In this document: piece by piece, positions 939 to 61,717 of the stretch
How positions within the stretch are numbered: position 1 is the first letter of the stretch
How the letters are laid out: each line of letters begins with the position of its first letter
Assembly: GCF_037038585.1 (NCBI RefSeq)
Contig: NC_092520.1
Location: forward strand, 148,799,104-148,863,103
Direction of reading: 5' to 3'
Origin: Patagioenas fasciata
Lineage: Eukaryota; Chordata; Aves; Columbiformes; Columbidae
DNA: 64,000 nucleotides
Translations under genes and position numbers: made by a program
Notes under the pieces: generated by a model
What the model was told of the DNA's origin: nothing
Databases searched by the model: none
Seen by the model: the letters and a program-made list of their open reading frames with translations, nothing else

Positions 939-942
939 ATGA
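739..942 (+). other. Upstream ORF whose stop overlaps the DENND5B start (ATGA)
   Basis: An open frame of 67 codons starts at ATG 739. Its TGA stop at 940-942 overlaps the DENND5B start codon at 939-941, making an ATGA overlap. It is Arg/Pro/Gly-rich, as any frame in such GC-rich DNA would be, so the peptide itself is unlikely to be functional. It matters only if transcription starts upstream of 739. In that case it could dampen, or couple by reinitiation, translation of the main ORF. Confidence 0.3.
854..874 (+). other. Short upstream ORF (six codons plus stop)
   Basis: ATG at 854 has G at -3 and G at +4, which is a strong Kozak context. It opens a six-codon frame reading MGAGAP that ends in TGA at 872-874, 64 bases before the main start. 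It lies 84 bases upstream of the DENND5B ATG, so it is likely inside the 5' UTR. It could lower translation of the main frame. The peptide is probably not functional. Confidence 0.4.
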
Positions 943-1050
943 GCGGGAGCGGCGCCCCCGGGCCCGGTGCGGCGCCCTGTCGCTTCGCCCACTACTTCGT
1001 GCTGTGCGGCATCGACGCGGAGAGCGGGCTGGAGCCCGACGAGCTGGCAG
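939..1050 (+). CDS. DENND5B: DENND5B coding exon 1 (N-terminus)
   Basis: This exon encodes residues 1-37 and the first base of codon 38, ending at CTGGCAG followed by the strong donor GTGAGC at 1051. The ATG at 939 is chosen because the frame gives [10 protein letters not shown], then [13 protein letters not shown] and SGLEPDELA, a hallmark start of DENND5 proteins. The context has G at -3. The Gly/Ala/Pro-rich leader (residues 2-13) is low-complexity and appears a little shorter than the mammalian one as I recall it. The conserved [11 protein letters not shown] segment begins the uDENN region. No signal peptide is expected or seen, which fits a cytosolic, membrane-recruited protein. The exon sits inside the CpG island. 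It ends in phase 1, so it can join either the cassette at 49841 or constant exon 2 at 55865 without a frame change. Confidence 0.93.
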
Positions 1051-31400: not shown

Positions 31401-34400
31401 GGGAAAGTGGCAGGACTAGAAATTGTGAATTAAGGGTCTACTTCCTGCTTTGAATAATTTTAAGCTGTATTACATAGGATGATGCCTGCTGGAGGTTGTA
31501 TCTTGATAGTAAAGTGTCAGCTATACCTGGGACCAGTGGGATTAGAAAGAGCAATGAACTGTTGGACCACTGGGAGGGAAAGCAGCAAAGCAACAATCTG
31601 TAGTAACACATACATATTTTTCAATCGCACTTTGTAATTAATTAATTGCTTTTGGTAGTGGATTCTGCCCTTTGAGTCAGCAGCTCTGCTATGACCTGCG
31701 GTTGTTACCTGTCTCCTGGGTTGGGACTCCTTGGGGGTTCAGGTGCCCTCACTCCCTGTCCTACTGCTGCCAGGGAGCCACCTGGCTGTGTCCTACCATT
31801 TGCCACCCATGAGTGGCCACCTCCTTGGCACTGTGCTGGTCTCTCCAGGATGACTGGAGGACCTAAGGTCTGGCACAGTGACGGTGCTCCAGTGCCCTCA
31901 TGTCTGGGATAGCTACCCTGAAGAAAGGGAATGTCTTGTGTTCATCACTTGACCTGAAATCTGTTGTGAAGCAGCATGAGGTAAACATAGAAGATTTTTA
32001 ATTACAAGACTGAAATGCAGACAACACAGTTGCAAAGTTGAGAAACACTCATATGGGTGAAAGTAAAACTAGACCGATGGTGTCTTGGGACTACTTTCTG
32101 CCAGCCAAATAGCTGTCTGTTCCTCCTTTCTTTGGAGATCCTTATGTCCCTCTAACACCCCTGACCTCCCCAGGAGCTGGTCTGGCACCTGGCTGAGCAT
32201 TACATGCCAGAGGGCTGATGGCAAATCAATAGAGGTTTTCCATATGAACCTTATAAATTTACTTGGGTGTAACCATGATCAATGCACCTTGCACACTGTG
32301 AAGTTTCACTGTCTAAAGCAATGACAGTTAAAGTCTCTCAGGATGACTTACGCAACTTAGTTATAAGGAATAGCATATCAAAGAGATTAACAGAAGCTCA
32401 TTTGACTGACTGTTCTCTGAGGGCTGATGGAATGACGAATGTGCTGCTCATCCTGTGCTGGATCTGAGATTTCTGCTAAGCTTCATCTGTAATAATCTTT
32501 TGGTGGAGGTGAACTTCCAGCACTGGTGTGGTAAATAACTCTCCCATGGTAAATTTACCGAACCATTTAGTGAGTGTTGCTGGCTGCTAAGAGGCTGGCC
32601 TTTTTCCCCAGTCTGCTACTTTCAGGGAAGTGAAATTATTGTTCCAGAAGCTAGTGGTTTATTGGTGTTCATCCTGAGATGCTTAAAATGTCCTTCAGTC
32701 TTCCATACCGTTATCTTCATGTAAACACATTAAGCCTTGGAGATAAAATGGGGAACTTCAGAAGAGCTGTTAACTGCATGAATAAATTCTGAATGTAAAA
32801 TTAATAATACTTCAGTCTTGTCAATATATAGACAAATGAAAGTTCACTTTGTATTACTTCCACACTTCTGTGTCCATTTTTGTCTCTTAACAAAGTTTAT
32901 TTCCTTCTTAGTATCATCAGTAAGACTGGCTTTTCCTTTTTCCTTTATGTAAAAGCTGTGTATTGAATGGCTGATGAGCCAATGAGGGAAAGTTGTATAG
33001 ATTGTGACCGAGACTTGTTTCTGCATGGCCAGGTTCTTGTGCACTGAGTTCCCCAAATGGCTTAAAATACAGAGTTCCTTTGGTCTGCATCTATAACAGA
33101 TGCTGAGAACTACTGGGAAATATAAATTTCTTCTGTTTTCCTGCTGGGCAAGATGTAAGTCTAAGATGGGCTAGCAAAGAGCTTAGTAAAATTCCTTCTT
33201 TTGGCAGGATTTTGATGGAAGTTGCTTGTGGGGATAATGAAGTAGCATCTAGTAGCTCTGGGAACCTTGTTGTGATTGAGAGCCCTACTCTGCCCTGCAA
33301 AGGGTGATGTGCTTTCTTCCTCTACAGGTACACAGATAATTGGAAGATGCTGTTTATTGCCAAAGATAGCTCCCAAAGTCCTTCAGACACGTGCTTTATT
33401 TGTTCTTAATAAGATGGAGAAAGGTGCTACCTTTTCAGCCAGGGTGCTACAGTTGTCCTGAAACTTGCATGCCATACCTGAGTAGAAAGGAGAGACATCT
33501 TTTTTAAAATCAATAGGATGCAAGAAATTAGGTTGACTAAGCTTCATGTCTGACTGGTTAAGTTTGGTTAGTTGATGTGAAACAGAAGTTCTGTAACCTC
33601 TCATAACCTAAAAAAGGTTAATTGATGCATTTCCTGACATTCTTTTAAAGATAAAATTTCTTCTACCCTACCTCAGCCCTCCTTCCAGTGGTCTTGAACA
33701 GAACTACCTGAAGAGATTATTTTTTTGCCTTCCTTTGCTCTTTCTGCTGTTGAAGAACATATGGGACCCAAATCCTGTTAACAGGAAAAAAAATTTTTAT
33801 TTATTTTTTTTTTTAATGGACTTCATCATTGAGCTGACCTTGCTCTGTTGGAGTGTAGCCTATATGAAGTAAGCCTAAAATAAGTAGTATCTTTCTGAAG
33901 TGGCCTGTAGTTGCTGGGATCTTCTTTGTTGGCTAGACACATCACTTGGGAGATCCCACGCAGAACCTTCTCCAGGGCTGTCTGGATGCCAGTCCCTGCT
34001 CTCACACTGTTATTGAGGGCTGGTTATGGGGATCCCCATGCACATGAAGCTGGGCAGGGAGCGTACCCCAGGAGTGTTCGTGCATTGACTGAAAATCCTG
34101 GGCCACTGAGTTATGTTTGAGATCCTTCTTCCATTTCTCCTTCCATTGTACTAATGGTGCACTTCCTTTTCTGTGGAGTGAGCCAGTTTGGGTTGATATC
34201 GCCTCTCCTGGGAGGTGAGAGAAGGTAATTTAGACCCAATCGCTCTCCATTCCAGCAAGTAAAAAAAACCCAAATTGAACAAATCTTTCATGCCTGAAGT
34301 GTTCTACCTCTTATGCCATGTAAAAGCAGATCCTTGCTGTTCCCTTAGCAAGATGCTATAGCTGCATTTTGTGGGGACACTATGCTTGTAAAACACTTGA

Positions 34401-38254: not shown

Positions 38255-41200
38255 AAGGGAAGTGAAATGGTTTTGGGGATGTACTTAAGTGGGAGTAAAA
38301 AGTTAAAAACCAACCAAACAAAATCAAACTAAAAAATTCCTTAATGTTTTGAAAACTTGGTTTCCAACTAGGCACTAACAGAAATAGAATGGCTTTCAAA
38401 GTAGCCTTCAATGTGCAGGTTTGAATAGACATGGAAATGGTTGGTCCCCACAGGTATGTGTGGAAATTAGTTATGAACCTCTATGACTCTGCTCTCTCTG
38501 ATTTTTATTTTGATTTTTTTTTTGCTGAGCCAGTCTTGGGTGAGAGAAACCTGGCTGGTGTGGAAGCTCTGCCCTCACTACAGGCGGGAAAGGCAGGGAA
38601 GCATTTGGTCCCTCATCACCCTGAACCTCCTGCACTGCAGAGCAAACTGGACCTTGCAGTACAGAGCACATCTCTCAGGTTTCTCCTTTGTCCTAACCAT
38701 CTTCTAGCAACATCCTAACCTGCCCTGTTTGTGCTAATTATATGTCTCATTCTTTCCATGACAAAAGTGATCAAAAATAGCTGCTTTAAAGGAGGGGGCG
38801 GGGGAGCAGGCAAGTAACAGAAACTAGATTTGCTGTAACCCAAGCCCCCTTTTATCTTCTTTCCTTAAAGACTCTTATTTTTTCATAAACAAACTATCAC
38901 TATTTCAGAGTCTCTGGTTCTTCAAAAGTGACTTTCCTAAATGCAGTGTTACACTTGGATTCTGGGGGCCTATTTTTCATGCTTAATCATATGCAGTGTG
39001 CTCTGCTGACAGCCAGTGGCTTCAGGCTGTTACCTTGAAATTGCTACCTCTTACCATTTCTAATGCAAGAGGTTGTTTTGTTTTTTAATTTGAGGCATTT
39101 GACAGGTTTGAGCCCCCTTCCTGTGGGAGCACAGATGGCAGCTAAAGGGATGCTGGAACAATTTCATCCCTACCTTGGTGATGACAAACAGGGTTTCAGG
39201 AGAGAGCGGCAAGGCTGTCTGTGCAAATGTTTGAACAGATCCCATGTCCCTGACTGACGTGGAAGGGATTTGATGCTCTCTGTGATGGCTAGTGCTGTGT
39301 TCTGAGGTGTTACCTGCTTGCCCGTGCTCTCCTGCTTGATTGTTGTGTCCAGGGCTCCCCTGCTGTCCAGATCTCAGTTTCTCGATTTCTAATGCTCTTA
39401 TGGAGCTTGCAAATGTTAAACCTATCTCTTCCTAGTTTTCTGGGGGTATGGTTTTCTCTCTTCCCCCATCCCCCATCCAAAACTCCAAATATCATGATTA
39501 TCAACCAAAAGGTGAATTTTGCATTTGGTCGCTTTTTTTAAATTGTGAGAAGATGTAAGAAGAAACAACAGGTAGCCTTTTTAAGGCAGGAAAAGGTCTA
39601 CCTTATAGGCCAGAGAGGCACCTTGATGTTCTGGACAGTTGAGGCTGTAAAGAAAGTGCTGGATAAGGCAAAGCTGAAATCCTATTGAGCCTGTCTGCAT
39701 GATGTCCCAGCTGGAAACCCTCTTTTTTTGCGGTTCAGTTTTCCCTGCAGCAACTCCCAAGCTTGTCCTGGAGGAGCTGAAGCAGCCAGAAGTGCCTTGT
39801 TGCCTCTTCTGCCTCAGGGCATCCTGTGAGAAGCACAGATCTACACTGCCTGTCAGGGAACTAATAATTCATCTTCCAGGAGAAGAGCTCTCCAGGAAAA
39901 TTTGACCTGATGCAGCTCATTTCTCTATCTTAAGGACCCATGTGTGAGTTTCAAGTTTTGTATGTGTCTAGCTTGTATAGATGAGGGTTTTAAAGAAAAG
40001 GGACAACTTGGATTTCAAATGTCTGAAGGCACATCCATTTTCAAGTTCATGATCTGACTGGAAGTTTTGTTTTCTGAATAATGCTGGGGGGGAAAAAAGC
40101 TGTGGTCAGAAGCTTTTCTTCTGCTTAAAATGATCTAATTTTATAATAAATAAAAAAACCAAACCTATGTACATTTATGCTTCTTGTTGTAGTGCACTAT
40201 TACTGTATTGCCTAGCTTTCCCTGGACCCTTTGTGAGCCTGATGGAGTGGTGCTTAAAAGTTCCTTCTGTAGATGTGTGGTTTGTTTTTTCAGTTTTTGA
40301 GATGTTGTGGTTTTTGTTGCATTTGGAATGTATTCCCTTGTTCCAGGTATCAGTGCCAGTGTATGCAGTCCTCCTTCCTCCTCCTTTCCTTCACTTACTG
40401 TTTCCCACCCTCCTACAGTTTTTTGCACAGATGAGATTAACTGGATGGAAAGATTAATCCAGCTGGGGGCTGAAAAGCAGCATGTTCCCCTCTGTTCTTC
40501 ATCCTTCCCTCCCTCCCCCAGGTATCCTTCAGCTGGCTCAGCTCACTGGTGCAGTTCCTTGCTGGAAATACCTGAGCTGATGAACCAAAAGCTTGGGTGC
40601 AGGGCTGGGAATGAGAAGAGGTGAGAGGAGGAGCTGCTTGTGGTGCCCGAAGTATCACTGCTGCTGGGTGTCTGCAGCTTTGGGGATCACTTACCTGCCG
40701 GGCTGCTAGCCTGCAGCTCAACAAAGGCCATGTGGACAAGGAGTAGCAATGACCAAGCTGGAACCTGGGAATTGTGTTCGGGGCTGAGGTGATGCAGGCT
40801 TGATGTATGTATTGTTCTATTGTAGCCACTGAGGTTAAAGCTTTCTCAGAAGAGCAAAATTTCCAAAATGTTAAGTAAAAGAAAGGTCACGGGAAGGGAA
40901 AAGCTGACCTTCTGTCAGGACAGAACATGTATTAAGTGCTTTTGCTTCTACACGTTGACACAAAGCTGTGATTAGACACATTTTCAAAGCAGACACTAAA
41001 AAGGCGTAGGAAACATAAGTTATTTTAGGCAATGTTGGTTGTATGGCTTCTTCAACATGCCCTGACAGTTCAGGGAGATGAAGCAATGTTGTCTTTTTGC
41101 CTACAAAAGTGCAAAACTCTGTCAGAGAGTCCACCTGGATGACTGTTGCAGAGTCATGTGAATCTGTGTGTTATCATTTGGGTAGGGCGACTGCACTTTG

Positions 41201-47200: not shown

Positions 47201-49840
47201 CCAAAGCCAGGGACCCCCTTGCTTGATGGGCTTTGGCATCCTGCGGTGTTCAAGGACCTGAGCTGGTGTTTTGCTCTTCCTTGAACGTTTTTCACTCTGC
47301 TATCATTAATGCACTTCTGGGAACTGAGAGATGGATTTCAAACCTTTCAGTTTCATATGTTGCTCGTTTGCTACATAAGTAATCAAAAGGTTAGCAGGCA
47401 ATTTAAGAATAATGATATACGAAACTTTTAATTATAGCTTGAATTGTTTTCTGTATTAGTAAAAATGCTTCTTCATTCCATATCATGTATTCAAAAAGAA
47501 GAGCAGATTTTAATACAAAAATGCAATTAAAAAAAATCTATATACTTGCTGTGTATAAACAGGGTAGACCAAGGATCTCTGGAGCACACTCTCTGTATAC
47601 CACCAACACTGGATTGGGAGCCTGTGCTTGGAAAGGCAGGGTGACAGGCAGGGAACAGAATGAGTAAATTCCACACACCATGATTTTTACAAAAAATAAA
47701 GGCCCAAGGTGTAAATAATCCCCTATATTTGTAAGTACAGGTCCAGCTTTATACCCGCTCCACTGTTTTCTCCTAATACATTCCAGCACTTGAGGACAGA
47801 TTCCAGGGTAACCGTGTAGGAGCACCATGCCTGGGGTACCTGTTTGTTAAACTCCCACTCACCCAAACAACCATAGTTTAAACTATGGCCTTTTGGATTT
47901 GACAAGATTATGATGCAACTTTATGGAAAGGGGATGGTGTAATTCATAGTTGTTTGCTAGTGTAGTGGGATGCCTGTGGTCAGTTGGCAGCTGGGACCTG
48001 AGGCTATTTTAAGAAGCTGACAATGTTGATGCTGTATAATGTTACTTCGTAGGCAGATAATTAAGTGTTTTAATCAAAATCAGAAGAAAGGGATAATAGT
48101 GAATTAAACTTTGTAGCTTTTTTATCTTTATTTAGACTTGTGCAATAACTCAGGTGAACAAATCTCCTTTTTTAAACACACTTTTGAAATACTGAGAATT
48201 TTCTGAGTGAAATTAATTTGTGGCAATAGGTATATTATGTTGCATTTTGTGTGCATAAAGAATTAGGCTGTACAAAAGTGTTCATAGCTCTGTATTTGTA
48301 TCATGTCAGTGGTGTTCTGTTATTTGACTTGTTGTGCAGGAGTTTTTGCATAACTTCTGTGACTGTTTAGCTATATGACTGATGATGATAAATGGTCAAA
48401 ATACTGAAATGGGCAGCAAAACCAGAACCTGTCCCAATGCATCTGGCTATGCATCCTGTTACAAATTGCCGTCTTTTCACAGTTCCTATTACAGAGGTTG
48501 TGGCTAAGTCCGTGGAAGCTCAATGCCAAATTCCTTTTGCATGATAATGGACTTTGCATGTAAAGGACTTTTAGGGAGAGCAGTGAGGACAGCCTGGCAG
48601 AGACACTTGTAAAGGCACAGTGGATACAGGTCACTAGCAAGGGGAGTCTACAGCTTTGGAAATCGTTTTGTTTCCTTTACTGTAAATACTTATACAACTT
48701 TTTAGTTTAAACAGCTCAAAAGTAGAATGAAATAGCTTAAGATATCTAGAGCGGCAAAACATCATCCTGCAGATTTGAATGTGACTTATCTTTAGGTGCC
48801 TCTGAAAGAAATAAGAAAAATTATCCTCAAATACAAATTCACATCTAGAAGTCCTTATTGAAAGAACTCCTGTGCTGAGGGTTGTCTTCCAGAAAATACA
48901 GCCTTGGCAGAATTATCTGGGTCCTCTGAACTGACACCTGGATTAACAGCTCAAGTAGGAGGTCATGGTGGAAATACTCTGAAATTACACCTAGAAACTG
49001 AATGACCACAGAGGTCAATGGCATTGCAGCTTAAGTAGACACTCTAGGTTTATAAAAATAGATTTAACTTGAGGAGGATTGCATAACGTGTTTGCATAGC
49101 CTATGAATGGGACTGTTTTTGATGAAGGAATGCCATGGCATCTGTGGTTTTCTGCAAGAGTTGAGCAAACCCTTTGGAAGAAACCTCAGTTAGACACGCT
49201 AGCAGGAATTTTTTCCAATACAAGTGTCTATTGGGGTAGCTGTTACTGGAAGAGATTAAAATTGTTCATCCAAGTTATAAACATAGATTACTTATTCCAG
49301 TCTTTGTCTAAAACCACCCTATTATGAGACAAAAATGATGAATAAAACTATTGGGTAACTTTAGCAAGTCCTGAAAATGGCACATAGTACAGCATTGAAG
49401 GTGTAACGATGTGGCTAACAGTATTATGCTAAAGAAAACCTCTTGAGTTTGGTTCAATACCAGTTACAGAACTGATGTTTTTCCCCCTGAGTTTCACAAG
49501 CTCTGGAATGGCTCAATATATGAACAGAACTGTTTTTCATAATAGGGAAGCTGTACAGCAGCATACTGTTTGAAGTGCCGAGAATTTAATCTTGTTGCTA
49601 ATTTTGACAAGTACTTCTACCGTGTCTGTCAGTGCATTCAACACCTTTATAGCAATACAGTCGCAGGGGGTTTTATTTATCACATGGATTTACCCTTTGG
49701 CAGTAGTGGGGGGAAGAGAGGTTGCACCGGGGTGTGTTTAATGTCTGCCTCATGTTTTTCCCTTCCCCCGTACATTTGTGTATCTTTTAATTTTGTTCAT
49801 ACTTGCTTTCTCTTTTATCTCTGTTTGTTATGTTGTGTAG
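38255..49840 (+). other. Intron 1, up to the cassette exon; mostly featureless
   Basis: Ordinary AT-rich intron. I see a short A/C-rich patch near 38300-38330, an 18-bp perfect palindrome at 47871-47888, and small homopolymers. The end of this stretch, from about 49740, becomes pyrimidine-rich and leads into the acceptor TTGTGTAG at 49840. No other gene is recognisable. Confidence 0.7.
47871..47888. repeat. Perfect 18-bp palindrome
   Basis: CCATAGTTTAAACTATGG is identical to its own reverse complement over all 18 bases and does not extend further. It could form a small cruciform or be a dimeric protein site, but may be chance in 64 kb of AT-rich DNA. Confidence 0.85.
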
Positions 49841-49906
49841 TCTTGTACAAATGGCTAGAAGCAGACCTCCATGGCAAGAGCTCAGATACTGCAGACAAAA
49901 CCTCAG
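49841..49906 (+). CDS. DENND5B: Candidate in-frame cassette exon of DENND5B (22 residues)
   Basis: A 66-nt segment lies between a pyrimidine-rich acceptor (TTTGTTATGTTGTGTAG, ending at 49840) and a donor GTAAAG at 49907. It is open, a multiple of three, and phase 1 at both ends, matching the phase-1 end of exon 1 and phase-1 start of exon 2. Splicing it in would change codon 38 from Gly to Val, then add LYKWLEADLHG and KSSDTADKTS, and restore Gly before ENFDQSP. Total insertion is 22 residues. DENND5A, as I recall it, has an extra segment at this exact position that begins with a similar pattern (ALCQYIQAS); the alignment ALCQYIQA / VLYKWLEA supports homology. I infer an alternative, probably tissue-specific exon inside the uDENN region. 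Expression is not demonstrated by sequence alone. Confidence 0.8.
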
Positions 49907-50390
49907 GTAAAGAGGCGTTGAGGACAAAAGCAATCACCAGGCCCTCTTTCTCTCTCTTATTTTCTGACTCCCAATTCCCTTTCAATCAAATTAAGGGTCA
50001 GAGTTTAAAAATTAAACCAAAAATCCTCAACTTTTTCATTCTTTTACCTGATTTGAATCAATATCTGATAAATTTTAGTCTTTCTTCTTGAAGCTCTCTT
50101 GGCAGATGTGCTTCCCCTCTCCAAAGAAATGCTACTGGGGGTGTCAGGTATATTGATGGATATACAAATTGCTACATCTTAGTGTGCTTAGTAAATAGTG
50201 AGCAGTATCTTGCGTGAGGCTGCTTTAGAGAATACTCCCCAAGAAATCTGACTGGGCTTAACTATGTAGACTTATGTACAAAGGGTACTGGAAGGTCCAG
50301 CTCCACCAGTTTCTGCTGCTGAGACCCAAAGGTTCCTGACACCTCAAGGAAGCATGTTTTGCAGTCTAGATTTAAAAAGGTCCACACAGA
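49907..50390 (+). other. Intron between cassette and constant exon 2, first part
   Basis: This begins with the donor GTAAAG. A pyrimidine-rich stretch (about 49945-50090) lies just downstream of the cassette and is typical of regulated exons, but I see no clear cluster of a specific splicing-factor motif. No gene or mobile element is recognisable. Confidence 0.6.
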
Positions 50391-50527
50391 CACACCAAAA
50401 AACCCAACCCAAAACAAACAAAAAACCCACAACAGAACAACAACAAAACCCCCAAAGCAACAAAACAGAAACCAAAACAAACAAACAAAAAACCCAAACA
50501 AAACAACAAAAAAACCCTGACAAACCC
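50391..50527. repeat. Long A/C-rich low-complexity tract
   Basis: About 137 bases are nearly free of T and G, made of CAAA, AACA and AACCC units. The Lys/Gln/Thr/Asn-rich frame on the + strand and the Phe/Val/Cys-rich frames on the - strand here are artefacts of the repeat. The tract ends only about 20 bases before the palindromic element at 50547. Confidence 0.9.
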
Positions 50528-50710: not shown

Positions 50711-53700
50711 AGATGTATTGATGAGATACACAACCCACTATGGCTTCCTGTTTAAATACGATCCATTAATCCTTTTACATGTGGACACAGAAGAGGTGGG
50801 TTAGACCCTTCTCATCTCTCCTGCCTCCTGAAAAAGTCACCACCATGTTACAGACAACTCAGATTTTAAAACTTTGGGATGAATGCTGTTTTGTCTGCCT
50901 TGTCCCAGCCCTTCCTTTCCTATAATTTCCCTCCTCCACTGTAAGATTATGAGAATATGTGGTCAGGAATGATGCCTTTGAGTTAACATCCTTGAACACT
51001 GACAGGCCTACCACTGCTGCTTTGGTCTTATGGTGAGATGCAGAAGAAAAGCAGCAGAGCACAATTTCTGCCCTACTTAAATGATCCATCTCTTGAGCCT
51101 GACAGTTAACAGTTTAATTGCTCCCCAGCCAAGCACTATTTTTCCTGTCTCCATGTTGTTTTCTCACTCACATGTTGTACATCACTTGCTTCTCGTGCAG
51201 GGTCATCCAGTTACCCAATGCTTACACAGGTTCTGCCTTCAGGAAAAGGACATAGCTGGATGTGCCGAGCACTTTTAATTAGAAATAACTATCAAAGAGG
51301 TTGTCACCGTGAGGTGCAGTACTGTGTGTTAGTCGTGCTGCCAGTACGTTCCTCTAAAGGAATAAAAGATATTTTTACTTCTGTGGTGACAGGCATTCCT
51401 GTGTACGTTCCAGAGCCTGGAAGGAGCGACAGATAGTTCGCATTCCCTGAACCAGAGGGTGTGGGTGAAGGATGATGCCTCTGCCTATTTGGTACATGTT
51501 TTTGTATGCCTCTGTGGCTGTGATAATTAATTAAAACAGATCTGCTTAGATGTTAAGATCGCTAAGTTTTTAAATAATCACTCATATGAAAGCCATCAGG
51601 ACCGGCAACATCACAACTGTAGCTGCCTTTCCCTAGAAATTTTATCTTTCATTCAAAATGCAGAAGATCCTAGTTTTCTAATTTTGAGAAATCTTTTGAT
51701 TCTAAAATGAAATCAGGATGTTTCTTCTTGATATAGAACCCATCATTTCACTATTTGCTTTTAGTCTGAAACTAAAGATTCCTTTAAAAAATTAGTGCCT
51801 TTAAGGGAAAGTGCAAATTGTTTAAAAGTACCATTACACAGGATGTTGTATCTAGTCAAAATGGAACTTGAATCTGACACATTTTACATGATTTTGAAAA
51901 ATACTTGAATGATTTAAAAAAAAAAAATCCTGAAAGCAAAAGGAGTCCATTCAAAACCAAAGTTTTAGTTTGCCTCTTACAGGCAGCTTACCCTATGAGA
52001 TGTGCTGTTTGCATGAATGGATACCACACATGAAGTACAATGTTTCTGTCTGTATTCTTAATACTGTTATCCAGCCATTAATATTTTAGAATATGGATTC
52101 AATTCACATTTGATACTTGCTTCATTATTAATGTGCCTTGCTAATCCAGTTTTGGAAGCTAGCAAGCAAGTACTTAAATAAGCACACACTAGGTTTAATG
52201 AAAATTTACTGTTTGCCTAGAATAACAGCTAAATAAACTTTGTCACATGTGACTCCACAGTTCAGAGCTATCAAGGCTGAGATCTGATAATATCAGGTAT
52301 CCTTTGTCCAAATTCCTTCCCTCATGTTTGCCAAGAAGGTTTTGCTCCTTGTGGTTCTCTTCCAGCTGCTTGTCAGTGTGGAGCTGGGTGTCATGTTCCA
52401 CATCGCTCATCAAATTTTGGTGAGAGTCAGGGTGTTTCCTGCTGGATTGGCCAAATGATGACGCTTCACCCTGACATGCGATCTGCTTTCTGTTGTATCC
52501 TTATACTGTTTCCTTCCCAAATTATGTGTCTCTAAAAGCTTACCATGCCTGTCTTCTGGGGGCAGCTTTTTATGAAGGGTTTAATGCTGTCCTTTTGAGT
52601 TAATGACCAGCTGATTCACTCCCGTGTGGTTTCTTGGCTCTTCTCTTTTGTCTTGTGATCACTGATTGAGAAAATTGTATTTTGTGGGTGTGCGCTTTAC
52701 CTTTAATTTATGATTATTTTTTTTTAAAACCACCATAGTAGTAAAATACAAACCCTGCAGAGACTCTGCAAAGGTAAGTTATTTGTGCCATTCATTTTCC
52801 TGGACAAAATGAATCCATGTTGTCGGCCTACTAGAACATTATTACTGCCTGTTTTGGAAGGCTGGGTTTCTTAAAGCAATGTTTGTGTTTCATAAAGAAA
52901 ACTTTTTAGACATCTCTGACATCCAAGTGACTGTACAAGTATTCGCAGCAACATACAAATTATTGGTCATTTCCAAAAGGTGATTGAAACCCTAATTTTT
53001 CATGATTGCTATGGTTTATTGGTAAACATGCCTTGTTCATCTCCACTGGTTCCAGATGCTGTTGCAGTATTACCTGTCAAGATGGGGGGGTAACTAGAAC
53101 AGCAGAAAATCAAGAATTTTCCTGCTCACATATCCCTGGTGATATAATTTTTGGTCTAAGATGGAAATAAGTACAGCTCTTTCTAGTGGGGTTAGCAACT
53201 GAACCATCAAACTAGGATAAGGTATTTTCCTGTGGAGAAGCTTTCCAGGATTAGTTCCCAAATCCCTTTGAGTAGTCTGATGTCCTTCAAGTGTTTATTC
53301 TGTAAAACTTCAGGAATCAATGGATGACATTATATCTTTAATGCCTCTGCAAAGAACTTCTGGGCTAAAAGAAGAGGTCGTTCTACTGCCATATTCTGTA
53401 ATAGAGTGATGGTCTCTCTTTTGTATACCTCAGTCTGAGCTTTACAACTGAGATGGAGAGGATCTTTGTAGAGCTTGTGCTCTGGACTGCCATAGCATCT
53501 AATGGCAAGTCTGGTTCAGTTTGACAGATGTGATGAGCTAATCAGCTAAATCCTGACATGTCTTTTAATTTGATCCAGTTTAGCTGTTACTTTCAGTTTT
53601 CTTTATTTCTGTGATGCATACAGTTTTGCTGGATTTCTGGTTTGCCTTGAGCAATTCCAGAAGCATGCTGGATTCCCTGCCAGAGATCCTCATCTTACCA

Positions 53701-55864: not shown

Positions 55865-55974
55865 GAGAGAATTTTGACCAGAGCCCCTTGAGAAGAACCT
55901 TCAAGTCCAAAGTTTTGGCCCATTACCCTCAGAACATTGAGTGGAACCCCTTTGACCAGGATGCCGTCAATATG
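55865..55974 (+). CDS. DENND5B: DENND5B constant exon 2
   Basis: This 110-nt exon lies between the acceptor TTTGTTGCAG and the donor GTAGGT at 55975. It starts in phase 1 and ends in phase 0. With the last base of exon 1 it encodes [24 protein letters not shown] and [13 protein letters not shown], which are residues 38-74 of the form lacking the cassette. The segment is nearly identical between DENND5A and DENND5B in the family. The residues AHYPQNIEW and VNM point to DENND5B rather than DENND5A. It forms the early part of the uDENN module, which with cDENN and dDENN makes the Rab-binding and exchange surface. The Ser/Arg/Lys-rich RRTFKSK stretch is basic. The exon is 54.8 kb downstream of exon 1 and 6.0 kb downstream of the cassette candidate. 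Confidence 0.95.
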
Positions 55975-61050: not shown

Positions 61051-61717
61051 CTGTGTATGCCCAAAGGGCTGTCGTTCAGGACGCAGGCAGACAACAGAGA
61101 TCCACAGCTCCATTCGTTCATCATCACCAGAGAAGATGGCTCTCGTACGTATGGGTTCGTGCTCACGTTCTACGAGGAGGTCACGAGCAAGCAGATCTGC
61201 ACAGCCATGCAAACCCTCTACCAGATGCACAATGCAGAGCAATACAGCAGCGTCTGCGCCTCCTCCTCGTGCAGCATGGACTCCCTGGCCAGCAGCATCG
61301 ACGAGGGCGATGCCACGTCCCTGGCCAAGCTCCAGCGGTACAACTCCTACGACATCAGCAGAGACACGCTGTATGTCTCCAAATGCATCTGTCTCATCAC
61401 CCCTCTGCCCTTCATGCAAGCCTGCAAGAAGTTCCTGATCCAGCTCTATAAGGCGGTGACCTCCCAGCAGCCACCACCTCTGCCCCTGGAGAGCTACATC
61501 CACAACATCCTCTACGAGGTGCCCCTGCCGCCCCCGGGGAGGTCGCTGAAGTTTTATGGAGTTTACGAGCCCATCATTTGCCAGAGACCTGGGCCCAACG
61601 AGCTGCCGCTCTCTGACTACCCGCTGCGAGAGGTCTTCGAGCTGCTGGGCCTGGAGAACCTGGTCCAGGTTTTCACCTGTGTTCTTCTGGAGATGCAGAT
61701 CCTTCTGTACTCACAAG
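61051..61717 (+). CDS. DENND5B: DENND5B exon 3 (uDENN core to start of cDENN)
   Basis: This 667-nt exon starts in phase 0 at CTGTGTATG (LCMPKGLSF) and ends with one base (G) of the next codon before the donor GTGGGC at 61718. It encodes residues 75-296 of the form lacking the cassette. Visible blocks: [16 protein letters not shown] at about 95-110; [20 protein letters not shown] at about 114-133; a Ser-rich acidic linker at about 140-163; [18 protein letters not shown] at about 168-185; PPPLPLES at 215-222; [16 protein letters not shown] at 229-244; then [20 protein letters not shown] at 270-289, which begins the cDENN part. The sequence is very close to mammalian DENND5B as recalled. The exon is much more GC- and CpG-rich than its introns. 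The frame continues into the intron only as far as TGA at 61726-61728, so the intron must be removed. Confidence 0.96.

Follow-up and report, generated by a model that had tools for sequence, protein, structure and literature searches.

The 66-nt segment at 49841-49906, in the first intron of a DENN-domain gene, is probably a real cassette exon, of an ordinary kind. Judging from the sequence, we read it as a genuine exon of DENND5B that preserves the reading frame and is optionally included, and put the probability of this reading at about three in four. What lifts the case above chance is that the acceptor of the segment closes an AG-free stretch unmatched in length elsewhere in the intron and, less surely, that the peptide it encodes resembles a presumed segment of the paralogue DENND5A from end to end. 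The window, by which we mean the whole 64,000-nt stretch of DNA that was analysed, holds the 5' part of the gene, with Pfam uDENN and DENN matches in the flanking exons. That the gene is DENND5B and that the DNA is bird-like are assumptions, in part following the original prediction, and do not come from the computed results. The coordinates of the features are collected in Table 1.

Table 1. Features of the candidate exon and its neighbours (positions in the window).
Feature	Positions	Strand	Description
Exon 1, coding part	939-1050	+	112 nt, 37 codons plus 1 base; donor GTGAGC, score 10.9
AG exclusion zone	49721-49838	+	118 bases free of AG (71% pyrimidine), leading up to the acceptor AG
Candidate cassette exon	49841-49906	+	66 nt, phase 1-1; would add 22 residues (VLYKWLEADLHGKSSDTADKTS)
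Donor GTAAAG and downstream CU-rich tract	49907-50006	+	PTB-like words
Exon 2	55865-55974	+	110 nt; begins at the common phase-1 junction GENFDQ
Exon 3	61051-61717	+	uDENN/DENN; 3' limit placed by eye at CACAAG/GTGGGC, unscored

The candidate exon lies 48.8 kb from exon 1. It is bounded by a TAG acceptor (...GTTGTGTAG/TCTTG, the exon starting at 49841) and by the donor ...ACCTCAG/GTAAAG (the exon ending at 49906); these sites are canonical AG/GT, and the phase fits both neighbours. The phase-1 frame is stop-free over the 66 nt, and splicing of exon 1, the candidate and exon 2 yields ...DELA-VLYKWLEADLHGKSSDTADKTS-GENFDQ..., with G/TC (Val) and G/GA (Gly) as the junction codons. The original prediction had given the size, the bounds, phase 1 at both ends, the TAG acceptor and the GTAAAG donor, all of which proved exact to the base; it had also held that the Gly at the junction would become Val and that Gly would be regained at the 3' end, and both codons are present. 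The open frame itself is weak evidence, since the 66-nt segment is open in two of its three frames and the phase-1 frame lies inside a 522-nt ORF (49570-50091) that extends far past the exon; as proof of the exon it was rejected on these grounds. A recursive splice site at 49841 was rejected as well, the acceptor being followed by TCTTG and not by GT. So was a repeat origin, as far as the window goes: a blastn search with 49641-50106 against the window (E up to 0.1) returned no second copy. Some 500 nt beyond the 3' end of the exon there is an A-rich degenerate tandem array (50396-50517; units of 21-33 nt with 67-70% matches).

We examined how the splice sites of the candidate compare with chance, using approximate weight matrices. 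Its acceptor scored 6.2 and its donor 8.0; the reference values were 10.9 for the donor of exon 1 and 12.8 and 7.8 for the acceptor and donor of exon 2. Pairs of sites 27-300 nt apart were then counted in intron 1 with an acceptor of at least 6.2 and a donor of at least 7.9, thresholds chosen post hoc just under the candidate's own scores. At these thresholds there were 25 acceptor-donor pairs of any phase, and 49841-49906 alone combined a length divisible by three with an open phase-1 frame. Comparable open phase-1 pairs were found at a mean of 1.95 in a Markov null of 40 simulations, at least one being present in 34 of the 40, and 7 such pairs were counted on the minus strand across the full window. 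The summed score of the candidate (14.2) was exceeded by at least 10 of the 3,097 open pairs in intron 1 (14.3-18.4 among the best ten listed). By both the Markov null and the ranking of summed scores, the splice-site strength of the candidate does not exceed the chance level of the intron; as proof of the exon it was rejected, being equalled by the null. Splice scores and openness alone prove nothing for 49841-49906. Real alternative exons often have weak splice sites, and site strength is a supporting rather than a defining property.

Three further open pairs are worth recording. At 39055-39120 on the minus strand, an antisense 66-nt open pair with scores of 9.3 and 8.8 shows how commonly such pairs occur. 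Within intron 1, the segments 33328-33423 and 52366-52419 are in frame and open in phase 1, with summed splice scores above that of the candidate; their AG-free zones are short (25 and 27, respectively), and they may be decoys or further optional exons.

The region upstream of the acceptor is more distinctive. The AG-to-AG distance at the candidate acceptor is 120 nt, which ranks first of 3,869 in intron 1, and the candidate thus has the long AG exclusion zone that supports a cassette exon. Among the 202 AGs of the intron with a tract of at least 66% pyrimidine, the distance reached 100 or more at three, the candidate's being the largest, and the eight distinct acceptors used by the ten higher-scoring pairs had distances of 9 to 54. 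Words resembling branch points within the final 70 nt before the acceptor were TTTAT (A at -24), TTCAT (A at -42) and TTAAT (A at -51). Long AG exclusion zones are known from acceptors whose branch points lie far upstream, and such acceptors are often alternative. Two results limit the weight of this feature. The Markov-simulated introns had a mean maximum AG gap of 114, and a gap of at least 120 occurred somewhere in 12 of the 40; consequently, the unusual part is only the coincidence of the gap with the sole in-frame candidate. The zones at the neighbouring real acceptors, 24 for exon 2 and 31 for exon 3, are not longer than those of the decoys, so that a long AG zone is no general mark of a real acceptor.

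We compared the insert with DENND5A (Rab6IP1), which we take to have at the same junction an N-terminal segment of 24 residues beginning ALCQYIQAS, presumably as a constant part of its reference protein. The comparison, made with a presumed DENND5A sequence, is a lead rather than a test. In a global, end-to-end alignment, the insert matched the presumed segment with P 0.0036 (20,000 shuffles). When 1,415 open pairs of 45-99 nt were ranked by this score, a single pair stood above the candidate, and its acceptor score was -9.1. A local alignment gave a score of 13 (P 0.55), compared with 23-24 in the best eight open intron pairs listed. When octamers anchored on an AG were scored against the presumed start of the segment, 11 of 2,710 exceeded the candidate, ties being left uncounted; over the first eight positions, the sole non-conservative difference from the presumed DENND5A sequence is Y against C. 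Like the candidate, the DENND5A segment lies between the DEL[AS] of the first exon and GENF[DE]Q, is of similar length, has a conservative start and is compatible with phase 1. Unlike in DENND5B, whose reference protein is apparently without it, the segment is presumably constant in the DENND5A reference protein. Paralogy with DENND5A, which the original prediction had proposed, has in its favour an end-to-end score above 99.6% of shuffles, but the local score is no better than shuffles, and the claim depends on a presumed DENND5A sequence. On these sequence comparisons, we consider a shared origin of the candidate exon and the DENND5A segment slightly better than an even bet.

These results bear on two other explanations of the segment. 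It could be a pseudo-exon, in which chance splice-like words around an open stretch of a long intron are never spliced. The frequency of comparable pairs in the Markov null (mean 1.95), the at least ten pairs with higher summed scores, the two open frames with the phase-1 frame inside the 522-nt ORF, and the absence of long AG-free stretches at the neighbouring real acceptors all agree with this; nevertheless, we consider a pseudo-exon unlikely, given that no AG-free stretch of the intron is longer than the one terminating at exactly the candidate's AG and that the insert resembles the presumed DENND5A segment end to end. The cassette-exon reading of the original prediction keeps the support of its anatomy and of the extreme AG-free stretch, but not that of the splice scores, which alone are at the level of chance. 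Alternatively, the exon could be real and non-homologous to the DENND5A segment, having arisen by later exonisation at the same junction. Although the local alignment with that segment was no better than shuffles (P 0.55) and the DENND5A sequence is a presumed one, later exonisation appears rather unlikely in view of the same junction, the similar length (22 residues versus a presumed 24), the global P of 0.0036, a start at which only Y against C is non-conservative over eight positions, and the lack of a second copy of 49641-50106 within the window.

The original prediction had located the insert in the uDENN region. In the including form, the insert occupies residues 38-59 and ends 15 residues ahead of the Pfam uDENN match, and its placement has to be moved upstream. 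The match begins at residue 53 in the skipping form and at residue 75 in the including form (75-136), and its score is 66.6 versus 66.8 bits between the two; the scores of uDENN and DENN thus hardly differ with and without the insert. Exon 1 probably encodes the first strand of the structural uDENN lobe, though. A Pfam search of the joined protein identified uDENN (E 2.3e-18) and DENN (E 6.4e-24), and exons 1 and 2 searched singly gave no match. Among solved structures, exon 3 as a query found DENND1A at E 0.0061, and the 276-residue joined form found none at E up to 1. Rfam at gathering thresholds detected nothing across the window.

The gene resembles the DENN-domain Rab exchange factors (uDENN-DENN-dDENN) in having Pfam uDENN and DENN matches in the flanking exons; unlike these domains, the 59-residue peptide formed by the insert and exon 2 gave no Pfam match (E up to 1), and the insert precedes uDENN. 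A search of solved structures with this peptide returned 10 sequences (E up to 10), all weak; the best was a designed repeat protein (E 0.00069) in which every single stretch was insignificant. When prokaryote genomes were searched with the peptide, 124 stretches matched a pattern and none passed. Viral contigs yielded 10 pattern-matched stretches, of which 1 passed. The one that passed is a 22-residue stretch of IMG/VR contig L001 (4777-4842), with 55% identity to query residues 19-40, across the junction of the insert and exon 2; only four of these query residues come from the insert, and the match was taken as chance.

CU-rich sequence lies on both sides of the exon, and PTB-like words were counted in each flank. 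The 100 nt downstream contained 11 motif starts, a number equalled or exceeded by 0.75% of intron windows; the 100 nt upstream contained 7 words, equalled or exceeded by 5.5% of intron windows and unremarkable alone. A density as good in both flanks was reached at 10 of 5,455 intron positions, the candidate locus counted among them. Six CELF-like words were present upstream of the exon (a count that has no control set), and neither RBFOX (GCATG) nor QKI (ACTAA) words were found within 300 nt. The candidate appears to share with the neuronal cassette exons repressed by PTBP1 CU-rich sequence on both sides, moderate splice sites, a long AG exclusion zone and preservation of the frame. In contrast to that class, its tissue-specific inclusion and PTBP1 binding are putative. 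Control by PTBP1 is a tentative proposal, to which we give somewhat less than even odds.

If the segment is a cassette exon, its regulation might be as follows. Exon 2 has the stronger acceptor and exon 1 the stronger donor, so that the candidate exon would be weakly defined and skipped by default. A repressor such as PTBP1, acting via the CU-rich flanks, would keep it skipped in most cells, and inclusion would occur where the repressor is low, in neurons and perhaps in others. The including form would gain a short helix-like stretch, followed by a linker rich in Ser and Thr, just ahead of the Pfam uDENN. The added loop could modulate how the protein binds Rabs or reaches membranes and leave the core fold undisturbed; effects of the insert on Rab choice are speculative. 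The exon would likely derive from the same ancestral exon that DENND5A retains as a constant segment. A fuller version of this history appears distinctly improbable: that the exon is uncatalogued and descends from a single ancestral DENND5 gene, was fixed in DENND5A but turned optional in DENND5B, and lets regulated splicing switch the N-terminal lobe of DENND5B between a short form and one that is DENND5A-like, the two differing in Rab choice.

A related question is whether the exon is already catalogued as a real alternative exon of DENND5B that is skipped in the reference human transcript. This would be compatible with the cassette-exon reading and would affect novelty only. Human DENND5B presumably has more than one reference transcript, and its exon 1 presumably encodes 42 residues. 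Because of these further transcripts, presence of the exon in some catalogue appears moderately probable. In one report, human DENND5B is numbered c.155/p.Arg52Lys in NM_144973.4 (PMC10940048); together with the exon 1 length given above, this numbering agrees with a reference transcript in which exon 2 directly follows exon 1, the skipping form. On the other side, no description of the candidate exon was found in the literature searched on DENND5B isoforms, exons and alternative splicing, a weak absence given the few texts examined, PMC8278112 among them. Two other reports place DENND5A among splicing changes, the exon being unspecified (PMC6429586, PMC11346782).

Alternative exons that keep the reading frame are ordinary. 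The interest of this one lies in the gene: according to the report that gives the human numbering, de novo DENND5B variants are a cause of a neurodevelopmental disorder, and DENND5B has a role in lipid handling (PMC10940048). If a coding exon is absent from the reference transcript, it would escape variant interpretation. If the relationship to DENND5A is true, the two paralogues, with a segment constitutive in one and optional in the other, would constitute a natural test of the role of this loop in Rab exchange.
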